From the IMG/VR virus record IMGVR_UViG_3300007511_000141, positions 1-24,755 of that record: a stretch of 24,755 bases of DNA; one strand, written 5' to 3'. The position numbers and the translations under genes are program-made. The DNA is from a virus. Under the pieces are notes generated by a model. It was not told where the DNA came from and did not search any database. It saw only the letters and a list, made by a program, of their open reading frames with translations. Every line of letters begins with the position of its first letter. Position 1 is the stretch's first letter. This document shows, piece after piece, positions 2,602 to 24,755 of this stretch.

Positions 2602-3654
2602 CTATGTTGACCTTGGCCCGAAAGTCTCAGCGAGGCAGTGGGCGAGGTACTCACCCGCGCCATTTGAATGCAGGTTGAGCACGTTGTCTTGAACACCGGC
2701 TGTGGAGACTACACTCCAAAGCTTCATGGCAGCCTCGGAGGGCATACGGCAGAAGAAGGTCACAAGGTTCTTGATCTCGACTTCGTTCAACTTTCGCTTA
2801 CAGGTGCCCTCAGCCTCCATCTTCTCAATCAAGGCACAAAAGTCGTTCAGGCTGAAACCCTCGATGATCTCGTCCCTTTCGCCCGCCAGCATCTGCTCGA
2901 TGGTGACCTGTCGGTCATAGTTCTTGGCAAAGTCATTGAAGGAGACTGCGGCCTCGAAGCCCACAAATGAGGTGGCTAAATGGAACATTACAGGACCATG
3001 GGTGAGATTGTCGGACTTCACAAGCACGCTGTTGAGACGATCCCACGACCGACGGGACGGGTAGACCTTGTTGGGCTCGTAGTCGCCGTTGTGCTCTAAA
3101 TGGTTGTGGTTCTGGTTGATGAAGTCCCAAATGAGACTGTCAACGTTGCTCTTGCCCCAAGTGAGCCAATCCTCAACGGTGGGCTCAATGTCCCATACGG
3201 AATAGCGGTCCAACTCGGCTGGATCCATCTCGTTGACCTGGTACTGCTCCCCATGCTCTCCGCCGTTAACCGCCGCAAATACAACGGTTTCGGGGTGGAG
3301 GTGGTTGCCGTTGAGCTTGCGGCTGTCGGTTAGCTCAAAGATGCCTTGGCGGACCTCAAGGACAGCACGATCAACCTCATCAAGGAATAGGACCACAGGC
3401 TTCTCACAGGCAACCTTGAACCAGTCCGGAGGGTTGAAGGTGGTGCGGTCTGCGTCGACGCTGGGGAGCCCAACAAGGTCACCCTCGGTCATCTGGCTGG
3501 CACGGCGCTCGATGATGGGAAGCCCCATTTCCTCGGCGATTTGGTAGACTACTTGGGACTTGCCGACGCCATGGCGACCACGGAGCATAACGGGCAACCC
3601 GGCGGCTGAGACGCTGGGGGCGATGCTGATGAAATTCTTGAAGTCGATGCTCAT
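2602..3654 (-). CDS. MoxR-like AAA+ ATPase
   Basis: A 350-residue AAA+ protein. Walker A is GRHGVGKS (residues 26-33), Walker B LFLDEVD (89-95), and the sensor-1 Asn lies in FAAVN (about 126-130). The helix-forming insertions and short size fit MoxR-family ATPases, which use ATP to remodel partners carrying VWA domains. Such a partner is the next gene downstream, so the pair is probably one system. Start ATG 3654 is preferred because GGGAG lies 8 nt upstream; an in-frame TTG five codons earlier is the alternative. Transcription starts from its own strong promoter (3711-3747), followed by a leader hairpin. The ATPase identity is confident; the biological target is not known. Confidence 0.85.
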   Translation of the reverse strand: MSIDFKNFISIAPSVSAAGLPVMLRGRHGVGKSQVVYQIAEEMGLPIIERRASQMTEGDLVGLPSVDADRTTFNPPDWFKVACEKPVVLFLDEVDRAVLEVRQGIFELTDSRKLNGNHLHPETVVFAAVNGGEHGEQYQVNEMDPAELDRYSVWDIEPTVEDWLTWGKSNVDSLIWDFINQNHNHLEHNGDYEPNKVYPSRRSWDRLNSVLVKSDNLTHGPVMFHLATSFVGFEAAVSFNDFAKNYDRQVTIEQMLAGERDEIIEGFSLNDFCALIEKMEAEGTCKRKLNEVEIKNLVTFFCRMPSEAAMKLWSVVSTAGVQDNVLNLHSNGAGEYLAHCLAETFGPRST

Positions 3655-3684
3655 TTGTGATTCTCCCAAATCATTTGTCGTCTT

Positions 3685-3710: not shown

Positions 3711-3747
3711 ACAATACCACAGGCTAGCGTGATGTCAAGCTTTATTT
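3711..3747 (-). promoter_or_regulatory. Promoter for the MoxR gene
   Basis: Minus strand: -35 TTGACA (3733-3738), 16-bp spacer ending GTGG, -10 TATTGT (3711-3716), with AAATAAAGC directly upstream of the -35. The upstream tract overlaps the TAA stop of the preceding 44-residue gene. Confidence 0.78.
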
Positions 3748-3876
3748 GGCGATGTGCTCAATAAAGTTGCCAGCGTCCCTGAGGGCTTTACAGACCTCGT
3801 CTAGGGTGGCTTCGGTGGCTTCTACCCTAGCCCGGCTGTTGGTGCTTGGGTTGCTATAGTAAACGATGATGCTCAT
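3742..3876 (-). CDS. 44-residue unknown protein
   Basis: A short gene of 44 residues starting at ATG 3876 with a strong AAGGAG 8 nt upstream, its own promoter and a leader hairpin. The sequence begins MSIIVYYSNPST and has an Ala/Glu/Thr-rich helix (EATEATLDEVCKAL) followed by FIEHIAK. The beta strand then amphipathic helix looks like a compact folded domain. The TAA stop is part of the AAATAAAGC promoter tract of the MoxR gene, so the two units are tightly packed. No family is recognised. Placement ahead of MoxR and the VWA metallopeptidase makes a functional link possible but unproven. Confidence 0.7.
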   Translation of the reverse strand: MSIIVYYSNPSTNSRARVEATEATLDEVCKALRDAGNFIEHIAK

Positions 3877-3918: not shown

Positions 3919-3955
3919 GTTATACCACGCCACCTCTCTTTGTCAAGCTTTATTT
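3919..3955 (-). promoter_or_regulatory. Promoter for the 44-residue gene
   Basis: Minus strand: -35 TTGACA (3941-3946), 16-bp spacer ending GTGG, -10 TATAAC (3919-3924), upstream tract GAAATAAAGC. A box variant CGGCATAAAAGA lies at 3959-3970. Confidence 0.78.
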
Positions 3956-4148
3956 CATCTTTTATGCCGTTTATTTGATGAGGGGGGACAAGTGTCTGGT
4001 TTGGCACGTTTCTTGCCTGGGGAATGGGGTGGTCCAAGGGGCTAAAAGGGTGTTATTGTCAGAAAAAGGGGGCGTTTGGGTTGACAAAAACACTACTTAT
4101 GGCGTATTTGGGACCTGTACAAGCGTTCAGTATATTTACTAATTTATA

Positions 4149-4295
4149 GGCGCTCGCTCCGCTCGCTAGCAGCTTCTGGCGGCTTCTAGCAGCTTCTGGC
4201 GGCTTCTGGTGACTTGCTGGCGGCTTCTGGCGGCTCGCTAGCAGCAGCTTCTGGTGGCTCGCCAACAACCTCTAGCGGCTTTCGGTGGCTTCTTA
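4149..4295. repeat. Imperfect tandem repeat of about 10 nt (GGCGGCTTCT type)
   Basis: GGCGGCTTCT, AGCAGCTTCT and GGTGGCTTCT variants recur for about 145 nt, interspersed with GCTCGCTAGCAG. The plus strand is rich in GGC/TTCT alternation. Copies have diverged, so this is an old or degenerate array. Confidence 0.7.
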
Positions 4296-4442
4296 GGGCT
4301 CTAAAATTCCTGGGCATAATTTCTTAGGTTTCACAGGCGACTTTCCCACCTCCTTTTATGGCGGCTCTGTTCCCCTCTGTGCAGCTTTATTCCTTCTCTG
4401 CGGTCCTCGTTCCTTTGGCGGGCATCCCCTCACAACCCGTTG

Positions 4443-4518
4443 TATAGTGGGGCATAGTGGGGCATAGTGGATATATTGGGATATATTGGGGCATAGTGGA
4501 TATATTGGGATATAGTGA
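4443..4518. repeat. 9-10-nt minisatellite (ATAGTGGGGC / ATATTGGGAT)
   Basis: About eight tandem units: ATAGTGGGGC twice, ATAGTGGAT, ATATTGGGAT, ATATTGGGGC, ATAGTGGAT, ATATTGGGAT, then a degenerate ATAGTGAGC. The near-10-bp period is close to one helical turn, so every unit presents the same face of the DNA. Confidence 0.8.
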
Positions 4519-4524
4519 GCTTAG

Positions 4525-4850
4525 TTCCTCAATATTCTTCTTCTGTGTCTTCTCATGGCTGTCGTTCTCTTCTTCTCCCCTTTTCTCTCCTCTTCTCTCT
4601 TCTTCTCATGCTGAACTCTTTTTTGGTTCTTTCTCTTCTTTACCCTTCTTACCAACCCTTGCTTCTCTTCTTTTCTCTCTGGGTTCTTTTTCTCTTCTTT
4701 CTCTCTATATCTTTCTCCTATCTCTCTAATATCTTCCTCTCCTTCTCTTTTCTCTCTATTGTTCTTTCTCTCTCTGTGCATCTTTATTTATCTCTAACTT
4801 TCTTCACATTTGTCTTTCTTCTTCTGTTTTTGGTTTTATTTATTATTCTT
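4525..4850. repeat. Polypyrimidine (plus) / polypurine (minus) tract
   Basis: For roughly 325 nt the plus strand is overwhelmingly C and T, in irregular TTCTCT and CTTCTT runs. The bias is far beyond the flanking genes and is not a simple repeat. Long purine/pyrimidine tracts can adopt triplex or unwound structures. Confidence 0.7.
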
Positions 4851-4858
4851 GTTGCCCG
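4846..4858 (-). repeat. Gene-boundary box after thioredoxin
   Basis: CGGGCAACAAGAA begins immediately after the thioredoxin TAA. The ~0.9-kb repeat region follows. Confidence 0.62.
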
Positions 4859-5203
4859 TTAATCGGTGTTTAGGTCAAGGAGTGCTGATAGGGCTGCTTC
4901 GTCTTTGAAGCCTGATGTGTGTGCTGTTATCTGTCCGTTGTTGAATACGTAGATGGTTGGTATTCCTCGGATTCCTAAGCTGTTTGTTAGGTCTGGGCTC
5001 TCACTTGTGTCGACCTCTCCAAACCTAACTTCGCTGTATAATTCATTGAGGCTCATTCTCGCCAGAATAGGGCTCACTAACTTGCATGGTCCGCACCATT
5101 CTGCCCCGAATTTGACTAGGGTTATTCCCTCCGCTATGAACTCCGCAAAGGTCTCTTGGTTTAGAGGGGTGATGTTGTTGTTGGTTTCATTGTTGTTGCT
5201 CAT
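4859..5203 (-). CDS. Thioredoxin
   Basis: A 114-residue thioredoxin. The redox site WCGPC is at residues 36-40 and the cis-proline lies in GIPTI (P82). Typical thioredoxins are about 105-110 residues, so the length is normal apart from an Asn-rich N-terminal extension (NNNETNNN). It would reduce disulfides, for example to support ribonucleotide reductase or act as a processivity partner; neither enzyme is in this window. ATG 5203 overlaps the upstream stop as TAATG, with AGGAG 8 nt before, so the two genes are translationally coupled. A gene-boundary box begins directly after the TAA. Confidence 0.93.
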   Translation of the reverse strand: MSNNNETNNNITPLNQETFAEFIAEGITLVKFGAEWCGPCKLVSPILARMSLNELYSEVRFGEVDTSESPDLTNSLGIRGIPTIYVFNNGQITAHTSGFKDEAALSALLDLNTD

Positions 5204-7198: not shown

Positions 7199-7933
7199 TT
7201 AGTCGTCGTCAAAGATCACATCCCCGGTGCCTAGGTCATCTAGTTCCTCGTCGGTGAGTTCTGAGTTGATGAGATCATAGATGTCCACTGCGCCGTCCTC
7301 CTCTCTCCTTTTCTGATCCTTCATCCACTTGGGGACATGCGTCTTGTAGGTGATTATCTGGAATGCTGTCTCCCTCGTTATCCTTACCCCTTTGCTCCCT
7401 CTCATAATGTCATATTTGGCATTGAAGGCGTCGGCAATACCCTGATAGGAGAGTCCTGTGCCCGCTTGGCACCTTATCCACTCAACCTCGCTGGGTGATA
7501 ACTTTAACCTGTGGCGCTTGCGGCGTACCCTTGCCGGGCCGAACCGCTGGTGTTTGCTGAGATCTAGTGGTGGTCGCCCTTTTCTGTCTGGACCCCTAGG
7601 AGACTCCCACCGCTTTATGCGCTCTATGTTTGCTGGGGTCTCCTTCGCCAACTCCTCTTCCGACCACTCCTCATAAGGGGCATACTTAGGCACCTTCACC
7701 CACTTTATTATGCGTGGTCCCGGGTCATGGAAGCGCTTCTTCTCGTTCTGAACATCCTTATAGTAGGTGGCGAGCACTTTTGGGATGCAACCCTTTGGGG
7801 CGCTGAGCCAGCGCTTCACCTGTTCGGACTTGGGGAGTAAATAGAAATTATGCTTGGCCCCCTTGTAGGTTGGGGGTGGCGAAGGCATCTTCTTCTTTTT
7901 CTTCCTTAGTGGCTTTTTGGGTTTGCGCCCCAT
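7199..7933 (-). CDS. HTH-containing putative DNA-binding protein
   Basis: 244 residues. The N-terminus is extremely basic (KPKKPLRKKKKK), the middle is Pro- and charge-rich, and residues about 145-198 read as a helix-turn-helix: LSPSEVEWIRCQAG, LSYQGIADAFNAKY, then ITRETAFQIITYK, resembling phage HTH proteins whose recognition helix follows a GLSYxxIA helix. The C-terminus is acidic (DDLGTGDVIFDDD). It most likely binds DNA; whether it is a regulator or a packaging or endonuclease-associated protein is open. The start ATG 7933 has GAGAGGA upstream and overlaps the transglycosylase gene by 28 nt. A gene-boundary box directly follows the stop. Confidence 0.7.
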   Translation of the reverse strand: MGRKPKKPLRKKKKKMPSPPPTYKGAKHNFYLLPKSEQVKRWLSAPKGCIPKVLATYYKDVQNEKKRFHDPGPRIIKWVKVPKYAPYEEWSEEELAKETPANIERIKRWESPRGPDRKGRPPLDLSKHQRFGPARVRRKRHRLKLSPSEVEWIRCQAGTGLSYQGIADAFNAKYDIMRGSKGVRITRETAFQIITYKTHVPKWMKDQKRREEDGAVDIYDLINSELTDEELDDLGTGDVIFDDD

Positions 7934-10634: not shown

Positions 10635-11453
10635 ATGAGCAGAGCCGCACTAAAAAACAAACGCCTGAGGCTTGAATACCGCTACCTCGAAGTGGAGAAA
10701 GAAGAGATCGATGAGGCGTCTCGTGAGAGCGAGATGGAACTACGCAAGTTCGAGTGGTATCAACAACTCTGTGAGAAGGCACTTGGGAGGCGAGCAGGCC
10801 CCGCTGAGCCTGATGTAGCACCAGAAGACAAAGGTGAGGACGAGGATGATGAGTGGGAAGATGAAGAGGAGTTCGATGAGGACATGCCACATTGGATGCG
10901 CTGGAAGCAGAAGCGTAGAAATGGGGCTGTCGGTAAAAGGCGCAAGAAAAAGAAGATACGGAACCTCCTTGCAGAATGCTCGGAAAAAGGAAACGACATC
11001 TGGGAGGAAATGCCTGACTGGTTTAAAGAGATGTTCGAAAACTCCAACGAAGCAGAAGAACCGCAAGCGAGAAATAGCGCACCAAAGGACAAGCGGGCCA
11101 GGAAGATATACAGGGCAATCGTTGAGAAAAGCCACCCGGACAAGGTTGGTCCGATCTATCTGGACCAGTTCCGCAGAGCCACCGAGGCGTTTCAATCTGG
11201 GAACATCGGCGAACTACTGAATGTCGCTGATGAGTTAGGTGTTGATGTGCCTGTCGGGATGGAGCGCGAACGCAACAAGTTCCTAGAAGAGCAGATCAAG
11301 GAGATGAGGGCGTTCGTTGCTGGCAAAAAGAACACTATCGGGTGGCTCTGGGCGGAAGCCGAGACCGAAGATGAGAGGTCCGCTATTCAAAAACGGTTCT
11401 GCTCTATCTACGGAATCGACCCCGACCAAGAGGAAACTACGACGAGGACGTGA
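10635..11453 (+). CDS. J-domain (DnaJ-like) co-chaperone-type protein
   Basis: A 272-residue protein and the only plus-strand gene. HPD at 167-169 within AIVEKSHPDKVGPIYLDQF, followed by a helix RRATEAFQSGN, is the diagnostic core of a J domain that would stimulate an Hsp70 ATPase. The preceding RARKIYRAIVE is its helix II. Residues 60-85 are an acidic run (EDKGEDEDDEWEDEEEF) and 95-110 a basic run (KRRKKKKIR); together they give a bipartite charged N-terminal half. The start ATG has no clear Shine-Dalgarno, and no strong plus-strand promoter is visible. It overlaps the convergent minus gene by 17 nt at its 3' end. GroEL is also phage-encoded here, hinting at interest in host protein folding. 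Confidence 0.85.
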   Translation: MSRAALKNKRLRLEYRYLEVEKEEIDEASRESEMELRKFEWYQQLCEKALGRRAGPAEPDVAPEDKGEDEDDEWEDEEEFDEDMPHWMRWKQKRRNGAVGKRRKKKKIRNLLAECSEKGNDIWEEMPDWFKEMFENSNEAEEPQARNSAPKDKRARKIYRAIVEKSHPDKVGPIYLDQFRRATEAFQSGNIGELLNVADELGVDVPVGMERERNKFLEEQIKEMRAFVAGKKNTIGWLWAEAETEDERSAIQKRFCSIYGIDPDQEETTTRT

Positions 11454-22378: not shown

Positions 22379-22879
22379 CTACTTTTTGGCTAGGAGGCGC
22401 TTGACTACACGACGAAGGACAGCTTCGGTGAGGTCGTCAGCGTCGATTTCGTCTTCGGTGCGATTAGCGGGAAGCTCCTCTTCCTCAGCACCCATCTCCA
22501 TAGCAGGCTCCTCGGCGGGAAGCTCCTCTTCCTCGGCACCCATCTCCATGGCGGGCTCCTCGGCGGGCATCTCTTCGCCAGCGTCCATAGAGATCTCAAC
22601 GTCGGTGACGTCAGAGATAGCCTGAACGACTGCGCCGACGATGTCCTCTACGCTTGCCTCTTCGGCAGACTCGGGCTCTTCGACGGGAAGCTCTTCCATA
22701 GCAGGCTCCTCAGCGGGAAGCTCCTCCATAGCAGGCTCTTCGCCCATGGGTAGCTCCTCCACCTCTTCCTCACCCTCTTCGGTGAGGTTCTCTAACCAGT
22801 TCTCGGTGAGAGGAGTAAGCTGTGCTAGCTTGCCCCAGCGACGGATGGTGGCTTCGTTCATTAGGCTCTTCTTGGACAT
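22379..22879 (-). CDS. Acidic repeat protein, possible prohead scaffold/core component
   Basis: 166 residues starting at ATG 22879 with GGAGAAA upstream. MNEATIRRWGKLAQLTPLTEN at the front is a segment I associate with T4-like prohead core or scaffold proteins of marine phages. The middle is strongly acidic with EEPAMEELPAEE-type repeats and two 16-residue units (EMGAEEEELPAEEPAM). Residues about 82-100 (DIVGAVVQAISDVTDVEISM) and the C-terminus (AVLRRVVKRLLAKK) are helical. Acidic, low-complexity and repetitive proteins of this size fit internal scaffolds cleaved during maturation; the canonical ClpP lies just downstream. Without homology search this remains inference. Confidence 0.68.
   Translation of the reverse strand: MSKKSLMNEATIRRWGKLAQLTPLTENWLENLTEEGEEEVEELPMGEEPAMEELPAEEPAMEELPVEEPESAEEASVEDIVGAVVQAISDVTDVEISMDAGEEMPAEEPAMEMGAEEEELPAEEPAMEMGAEEEELPANRTEDEIDADDLTEAVLRRVVKRLLAKK
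22467..22562. repeat. 48-nt direct repeat in the acidic protein gene
   Basis: Two copies with a 48-nt period (GCGGGAAGCTCCTC at 22467 and again at 22515) differ at a few positions and encode the 16-residue acidic unit. Confidence 0.75.
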
Positions 22880-23215: not shown

Positions 23216-23981
23216 TTGTTATTCTTTTCTTTTGTTGCCGGGAAATGGCGTCATCAACCCTCTGTTTAGCTAACTCATAATACCCCTCATTCAATTCAAC
23301 CCCGATGAAATCTCTGTTTGTGTTAGCACAGGCAACACCCGTAGTCCCCGAACCCATCGTGAAGTCTAACACCACCTGCCCCTCGTTGGTGTATGTCTTT
23401 ATCAAATATTCCATCAAAGCCGTCGGCTTCTGTGTTGGGTGCTTCCCATACTTACCTCTCTCGGCTTCTGCTGTCTTGAAATATTGGACAGACCTTGGAT
23501 ATCTCATCCCGTCATCACACTTCACCGTAGTGCTGACCTGTTCCCCATAAACATCTGTCTCTCGTTTCGCTGTGCCTTTGTTGTAGGGGGTTGACTGCCA
23601 CTTTTGTGGGTTGTAGATTGGTGGCTTCTTGTAGAACACACACACATCCTCGTGAGCTTTGAGAGGCATCTTCTTGGCGTTCAAATAACCACTTGCCTTT
23701 GATTTCTCCCAAACCCAGTTGTAACGAAACTCTTTTATGTTACTCGCTATCAGTGATGTAGTAAAGGGTTGCGATGCCGTAAAGACCTTTGCTGCATCTT
23801 GCTTACACACTCTTGTGAGTTCTTCCCACATGGGACCCAAGGGTAGAATACTATCCCATTTACACTTGGTTGTTCCATAGGGCAAATCCACCAACACCAT
23901 ATCTATCGTGCTTGACTGGATTGTTCGCAAATGTTCAAAGGCATCTCCCAGTAGTAGTTGGCAAGTTGTAGTAGTAGTCAT
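23208..23981 (-). CDS. Beta-class DNA methyltransferase (DLPY)
   Basis: 257 residues. Catalytic motif IV is DLPYGTT (32-38), a DPPY variant, and motif I-like DFTMGSGTTG (206-215) follows late in the chain, the beta-class order with the target-recognition domain between. KHPTQKPTALMEYLI (about 180-194) is the conserved motif just before it. It modifies adenine N6 or cytosine N4; target unknown. It overlaps the nuclease-like gene upstream by 4 nt and the sigma-like gene downstream by 8 nt. It could protect phage DNA from that nuclease or from host restriction. Confidence 0.92.
   Translation of the reverse strand: MTTTTTCQLLLGDAFEHLRTIQSSTIDMVLVDLPYGTTKCKWDSILPLGPMWEELTRVCKQDAAKVFTASQPFTTSLIASNIKEFRYNWVWEKSKASGYLNAKKMPLKAHEDVCVFYKKPPIYNPQKWQSTPYNKGTAKRETDVYGEQVSTTVKCDDGMRYPRSVQYFKTAEAERGKYGKHPTQKPTALMEYLIKTYTNEGQVVLDFTMGSGTTGVACANTNRDFIGVELNEGYYELAKQRVDDAISRQQKKRITNE
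23225..23241 (-). repeat. Gene-boundary box at the methyltransferase/sigma-like junction
   Basis: CCCGGCAACAAAAGAAAAG encodes the last residues (RQQKK) of the methyltransferase and is the only sequence in ribosome-site position for the sigma-like gene. Confidence 0.62.
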
Positions 23982-24652
23982 TTAGAATCCTCATTCTGTT
24001 GTTCGCCTTCGGGTTTCTGTTCTGTCAGCCGCTGATAAAAATCAACCTCTCTCCTAATTAGTTCTTCTTCTGGGTTAAATTGAACAAACGTACTCATGGG
24101 GGTTAGATATGTCTTACTCGATGTCCTGCCATGGCGACACAGAGGAAAATACAACATCTTCTCACGAAGAAGCGTTTCGTAGAGTTTGCTCCTAGTTTCG
24201 AGGTCCCTCTCTAGTAAGTGTCCAAAGTTGTCATATGAGGTTGGACAACTTAAGATAAAATATGGGACGTCAGCCCCCACAGAGAGACTCGCCTGAATAA
24301 CATCTATGGCATTTTTGATCGCTCGTCCAGCGAATGGTTTATCGACATAATGCCCCTTGTCTTCTTCGACAGCAAGCAGTCGTTTACCGCATAGAGTATA
24401 AACCCAGAGATCCGGCTTATAAACTTTAGCAATAGCTCGTTCGAGTTCTGTCGATGGTTTAAAACCCCTACCAGGAACAACTTTGAGCCCATAGCCATAG
24501 TACTTTTTCAGATAAGCCGCCCTGTAGCTCTCGTACTCCTCACCTACGGTGTCCTTCTTTGCTTTGTTGTCTTTCATCACTCGTCGGCAGAGACCTTGGT
24601 AATAGATAGTGCTAAGTTCTTCGCCAATTTGTCGGACAATCTCATCTTCCAT
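23978..24652 (-). CDS. Putative PD-(D/E)xK nuclease, possible restriction partner
   Basis: 224 residues from ATG 24652. KPDLWVY (P80-D81) and LLAVEEDKGHY (E97-D98-K99) have the spacing and surroundings of a PD-(D/E)xK active site: Asp on one strand, Glu-x-Lys on the next. KPSTELERAI (66-75) may hold the helix Glu. The gene overlaps the methyltransferase by 4 nt, the arrangement of type II restriction pairs. Start ATG 24652 is preferred because AGAGGTAGAG precedes it; an ATG in the leader hairpin (24679) is probably not used. It could degrade host DNA, act as a restriction enzyme, or exclude other phages. The residue match is visible; the activity is inferred. Confidence 0.68.
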   Translation of the reverse strand: MEDEIVRQIGEELSTIYYQGLCRRVMKDNKAKKDTVGEEYESYRAAYLKKYYGYGLKVVPGRGFKPSTELERAIAKVYKPDLWVYTLCGKRLLAVEEDKGHYVDKPFAGRAIKNAIDVIQASLSVGADVPYFILSCPTSYDNFGHLLERDLETRSKLYETLLREKMLYFPLCRHGRTSSKTYLTPMSTFVQFNPEEELIRREVDFYQRLTEQKPEGEQQNEDSK

Positions 24653-24670
24653 CTCTACCTCTTTCCGTCT

Positions 24671-24684
24671 GGGGTTCATTCCCC
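24671..24684 (-). promoter_or_regulatory. 5' leader hairpin of the nuclease-like gene
   Basis: GGGG-AATGAA-CCCC on the minus strand, identical to 14512-14525, located 10-15 nt past the -10 and about 20 nt ahead of the chosen ATG. Confidence 0.6.
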
Positions 24685-24692
24685 GTACATTA

Positions 24693-24728
24693 TTTATACC
24701 ACGTTTCGCTGGTACGTCAATCTTTATT
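24693..24728 (-). promoter_or_regulatory. Promoter for the nuclease-methyltransferase unit
   Basis: Minus strand: -35 TTGACG (24715-24720), 16-bp spacer ending GTGG, -10 TATAAA (24693-24698), with AAATAAAG upstream of the -35 and a gene-boundary box at 24735-24750. Confidence 0.75.
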
Positions 24729-24734
24729 TGTCTT

Positions 24735-24750
24735 TTTCTTTTGTTGCCGG
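24735..24750 (-). repeat. Gene-boundary box at the right edge
   Basis: CCGGCAACAAAAGAAA on the minus strand, 15 nt upstream of the -35 of the nuclease-unit promoter. The gene ending here is outside the window. Confidence 0.62.
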
Positions 24751-24755
24751 CGCTA

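Follow-up and report, generated by a model that had tools for sequence, protein, structure and literature searches.

A candidate head-on promoter with phased 10-bp repeats in an uncultured phage: a possible origin-type control module

In the large lytic phage T4, the origin oriE combines an early promoter with evenly spaced short direct repeats of 12 nt; these repeats are kept in the syntenic regions of relatives and their role is unproven (PMC3016281). The iterons of plasmid origins are helically phased, as are the initiator-site arrays of the lambda origin, which also needs transcription to function (PMC5043065). The R1 parC and tubC centromeres likewise have short direct repeats in phase beside a promoter, those of the ParR type being tandem direct repeats that adjoin or flank the promoter (PMC5016525). 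Rho utilisation (rut) sites are long C-rich, G-poor stretches 3' of a promoter (PMC11018607).

A locus that shares features with each of these systems lies in a window of 24,755 nucleotides (the whole stretch analysed, IMG/VR record IMGVR_UViG_3300007511_000141), which is a fragment of a large uncultured virus of bacteria coded almost wholly on one strand. Its gap at 4149-4850 is best read, with a probability of about 0.4, as the transcribed side of a head-on promoter and an iteron-like, origin-type control module. By analogy, the module is plausibly a replication origin of the T4 oriE kind, and it would then bear on whether the oriE repeats do anything. Unlike those of oriE, the repeats here are 10-bp units placed after the promoter start, the neighbouring genes are unrelated, no repEA or repEB was seen, and the module is not near a switch of the transcribed strand, whereas oriE is. 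From the lambda and iteron origins it differs in its unit, 10 bp against about 17-22 bp, and no clear AT-rich stretch for melting lies in the window.

Anatomy of the gap and its neighbours

The gap separates two minus-strand reading frames, a thioredoxin gene upstream (4859-5203; PF00085, 7e-22) and a 44-aa ORF of no family with an AAGGAG ribosome site (3742-3876). The first gene downstream (2602-3669, minus strand) encodes a MoxR-like AAA ATPase and served as the anchor for finding relatives. The sequence-only reading had seen nothing gene-like in the gap, and this was borne out: the ORFs within 4149-4850 are of low complexity and none is credible. One of them, an 86-aa minus-strand ORF, was dismissed because it has no Pfam match and a 10-bp indel disrupts its frame in a sibling contig; a hidden gene was hence rejected. 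A structured noncoding RNA was rejected as well: the search for conserved covarying structure gave six weak pairs, folding z-scores were near 0, and there was no Rfam match.

Two repeat arrays occupy the proximal part of the gap on the plus strand. Array 1 (4152-4300) consists of about 12 imperfect units of [AG]GC[AG]GCTTCT with a period of 10, and its lag-10 self-match is 25/30, where the background probability of at least 20 is 0.0015. Array 2 (4443-4517) is built from the units ATAGTGGGGC and ATATTGGGAT, arranged as 10+10+9 in a 29-bp super-unit. Tandem Repeats Finder (TRF) placed arrays at 4172-4262 (period 10/21) and 4443-4517 (29-bp super-unit), in agreement with the period of 9-10 nt first noticed.

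Beyond the arrays lies a tract at 4535-4831 that is C/U-rich on the plus strand and purine-rich on the sense strand. It is the best pyrimidine segment, with 297 nt and 86% C/T, and its score of 133 lies well above anything reached by 200 dinucleotide shuffles (maximum 33) or by related contigs totalling about 1 Mb (38 at most). Its composition on the plus strand is 31% C and 6% G, the C/G ratio reaching 27 in 78 nt, and TRF reported short pyrimidine repeats within 4566-4607 and 4662-4773. The tract of 325 nt that had been proposed is therefore real and far beyond chance, though its length (4526-4850) was slightly generous; the extreme strand asymmetry is present but local only. A second spacer, at 340-670 after the DUF2201 gene region, is purine-rich on the minus strand and has period-9 repeats at 491-544 and 664-694; no antisense promoter match was found in it.

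On the sense (minus) strand, a candidate sigma70-like promoter of the AAATAAAGCTTGACA family, TTGACA-N16-TATAAC, stands in front of the 44-aa ORF (3919-3946), and a candidate promoter of the MoxR gene, TTGACA-N16-TGGTATTGT, at 3711-3738. Minus-strand copies of this AAATAAAGCTTGACA-N16-TGGTATTGT family lie at 3954-3919, 3746-3711, 2426-2391 and 15293-15266; many of these promoters overlap the preceding stop codon, and a related promoter profile is common to the relatives. At the other border, a gene-end element dispersed in this phage, CGGGCAACAA (4849-4858, minus strand), directly follows the thioredoxin stop codon. The form CGGCAACAA followed by A-rich sequence occurs on the minus strand of the window at 4849-4858, 667 and 1008 and at many sites in the sibling (G001; L090+L091). 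In that 36.5-kb contig the pattern GG.?CAACAA is about three times commoner on the sense than on the antisense strand, and it is frequent directly after stop codons and before promoters. A 3' end shared by the window and two relatives (L022 and L026) proved to be mostly this dispersed element CGGCAACAA. Elsewhere in the minus-strand region, a gene-like plus-strand ORF (10635-11453) with reversed AT skew carries an HPDK motif as in J-domains, yet has no Pfam match.

The antisense motif and the phased arrays of relatives

The relatives found through the MoxR gene sit on viral contigs whose length reaches 190 kb and beyond. Where sampled, these are coded almost wholly on one strand and encode a DnaE-like polymerase, a DnaB-like helicase, ribonucleotide reductase, GroEL and portal. 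These phages look lytic, and cultured phages in the searched collection are distant relatives only. In the spacers of 16 relatives (15 MoxR spacers and a relocated copy in L045) an antisense motif, TTGAC[AGT]-N17-TA[TC]T[AT][AG], was found. A matrix trained on these relatives alone, with no window sequence in it, gave 20.3 bits at 4081-4110 on the plus strand of the window, the next best match on both strands being 9.7; the motif was defined after the relatives had been inspected, and the similarity of the window had been noticed visually ahead of the matrix run. A background of 716 kb gave no match of at least 20.3 bits, the best outside true sites being 17.1.

This predicted antisense sigma70-like promoter, here called P_rev, consists of TTGACA (4081-4086), an 18-bp spacer and TATTTG (4105-4110), and it aligns with TTGACAAAGACCCTTATACTATGTATTAGGCACC of one relative (L002). 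It points away from MoxR and against nearly all genes. Its -10 element TATTTG and 18-bp spacer are weak for sigma70, and it was missed by a general promoter scan. Since the relatives' matrix gives one clear match in the window, the gap can be taken as what P_rev would transcribe, with array 1 as the first transcribed part. Each of 11 large contigs has one convincing antisense motif, less surely so in G022; the one in G021 coincides in part with the start of an ORF. A T4-type late promoter, TATAAATA, was considered at 4141-4148 and set aside, its one-mismatch matches being not clearly above chance.

Downstream of the motif, phased repeats recur. In the MoxR spacer of relatives with about 70% identity there are three to four helically phased 10-bp repeats; 13 of the 16 motif-bearing relatives have three to four copies of GCWGNCAAWN at 10-nt spacing, which begin a few nucleotides 3' of the motif and keep CAA invariant every 10 nt. 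A strict sub-pattern of these repeats was found in 12 of 22 records, each time in the MoxR spacer only, so that each array-bearing genome has a single such locus, and a reversed control gave none. An array with a lag-10 self-match of at least 20 follows 13 of 33 antisense motifs against 0 of 26 sense ones (background 0.0015); the 13 cases include many close kin and are therefore not independent events. Conserved boxes, TTGATAANGCTNG, AAAACAATCACTTA and the palindromic TGTGCAACTTTTGCAGT, were also seen 3' of the array in the MoxR spacers of L004-L016; of these, the window lacks the palindromic one.

The arrangements vary. In L026 and L022 the promoter motif is followed by an array and then by a C/T-rich stretch, as in the window, with different units; L029 has the motif and an array of yet another unit without the C/T-rich stretch, and L017 and L018 keep the motif and have no array. 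A profile search comparing the repeats of the window and of the relatives was not significant. A matrix comparison did give matches (p about 0.04 and 0.004), which were not relied on because the orientation is opposite, and direct homology of the repeats was set aside as not demonstrable. The MoxR tree places the window outside the clade that carries arrays, and the window's array could therefore be inherited or independent. The conservation that had been looked for in relatives thus holds for the architecture and fails for the repeat sequence.

Origin-type function and its rivals

From these features we infer promoter activity, protein binding, origin function and termination. P_rev would fire head-on into the phased repeats of about 10 bp and then into the C/U-rich, G-poor stretch. 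A phage DNA-binding protein may polymerise along the repeats on one helix face, as on iterons, and the bound protein together with antisense transcription would open the DNA and/or prime leading-strand synthesis, as in T4 oriE or the lambda origin. The C-rich tract would end the P_rev transcript, in the manner of a rut site, before the thioredoxin operon is read antisense; if it did not, P_rev would read the thioredoxin gene in that direction. Unlike in the generic rut comparison, the tract is C-rich on the antisense transcript only, and the terminator is predicted from composition.

Of the features of iteron-type origins, short direct repeats in helical phase are present in the window and in 13 close relatives, and a promoter adjoining the repeats is represented by the conserved promoter-like motif. 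The changing neighbour gene and a sibling indel of exactly 10 bp, the length of one repeat, also agree with such a module. No initiator gene adjoining the module was identified; a helix-turn-helix (HTH) gene lies near it in many genomes, at no fixed position and with no Pfam family, and in the window the HTH protein is encoded at 7199-7933. A DnaA-dependent origin was rejected, as the window holds 161 box matches with at most two mismatches against 172 expected, and no exact TTATCCACA. The change of skew that the sequence-only reading had tied to this place was found neither in the window contig nor in relatives, and in four large genomes the detrended skew reaches its minimum 28-32 kb away. 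Absence of skew is not decisive for phages that have several origins and replicate by recombination. The idea of a dedicated, origin-like site consequently gains from the phased 10-bp arrays kept at one locus beside a conserved antisense motif and loses from the lack of a skew switch. More tentatively, the module may be a lineage-wide one for replication initiation in uncultured one-strand phages, with one head-on promoter and phased 10-bp array per genome, its architecture kept while the units would be replaced between lineages in step with a putative DNA-binding initiator; this wider form is rather doubtful.

The main rival is a regulated antisense promoter with no replication role, where the repeats would be operators for an oligomeric repressor or activator and the C/U-rich RNA would regulate early gene expression, in antisense or in trans. 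The conserved motif, the phased sites directly at the transcription start, the divergent sense promoter and the missing skew signal all agree with it, and the array sites presumably resemble operators of ribbon-helix-helix proteins. We nevertheless hold it to be somewhat unlikely: there is no conserved RNA structure, the downstream target gene differs among relatives, and an operon regulator would not usually occur just once per genome beside neighbours that change. The gene beside the module may be MoxR or, in L045, DUF2201, while in L029 and L020 the module lies 3-5 kb beyond MoxR; plain regulation of the MoxR operon was rejected for this reason. For antisense control as for replication start, one conserved motif of a head-on promoter, accompanied by phased repeats, marks a precise place for a test.

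The gap might instead be a neutral spacer, in which slippage-prone minisatellites and a low-complexity tract accumulated beside an unrelated old promoter. Here the sibling contig (IMGVR_UViG_3300009128_000064, G001), with 99.87% identity over 23.2 kb of the window, is informative. Within the gap it differs by one 10-bp insertion at 4599, in the C/U-rich tract, and by a three-base swap of one unit of array 2, and by nothing else. Across the aligned sequence, tandem repeats contain 9 of the 20 substitutions as well as the sole indel of more than one base, which indicates that the repeats are unstable and change by one unit at a time, although the indel and the swap may be assembly effects. Such instability suits a neutral spacer, as do unit sequences that are not conserved between lineages and the result of DNA and pattern searches, in which no contig other than the sibling carried the window's own repeats. 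But the order of promoter and array, in some cases with a pyrimidine stretch, recurs in several lineages on the antisense strand only, and 13 relatives keep phased arrays at one site, so that neutrality appears improbable. Of the recombination hotspot suggested earlier, what stands is that the repeats are where two siblings differ; it found no further support.

A partition (centromere-like) or packaging site, also proposed earlier, is very unlikely; a ParR/TubR-like protein or a small terminase would there bind the 10-bp repeats. ParR-type centromeres do have units of 10-12 bp, and the tandem repeats beside a promoter fit them; however, no par or tubZ gene was seen among the annotated genes, and no ParM/ParR or TubZ/TubR among the proteins scanned, in genomes that are not fully annotated, and the phages look lytic. 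Packaging is disfavoured because in G011 the portal gene (14-16 kb) lies about 72 kb from the module (86 kb).

The two siblings also differ outside the gap. The end of the window (23241-24755) carries a DNA methyltransferase and a 233-aa ORF and finds no alignment with the corresponding sibling end; it appears to be a strain-specific cassette. At 22379-22879 an acidic protein with in-frame 48-bp repeats is encoded, and 6 of the 20 sibling substitutions fall there.
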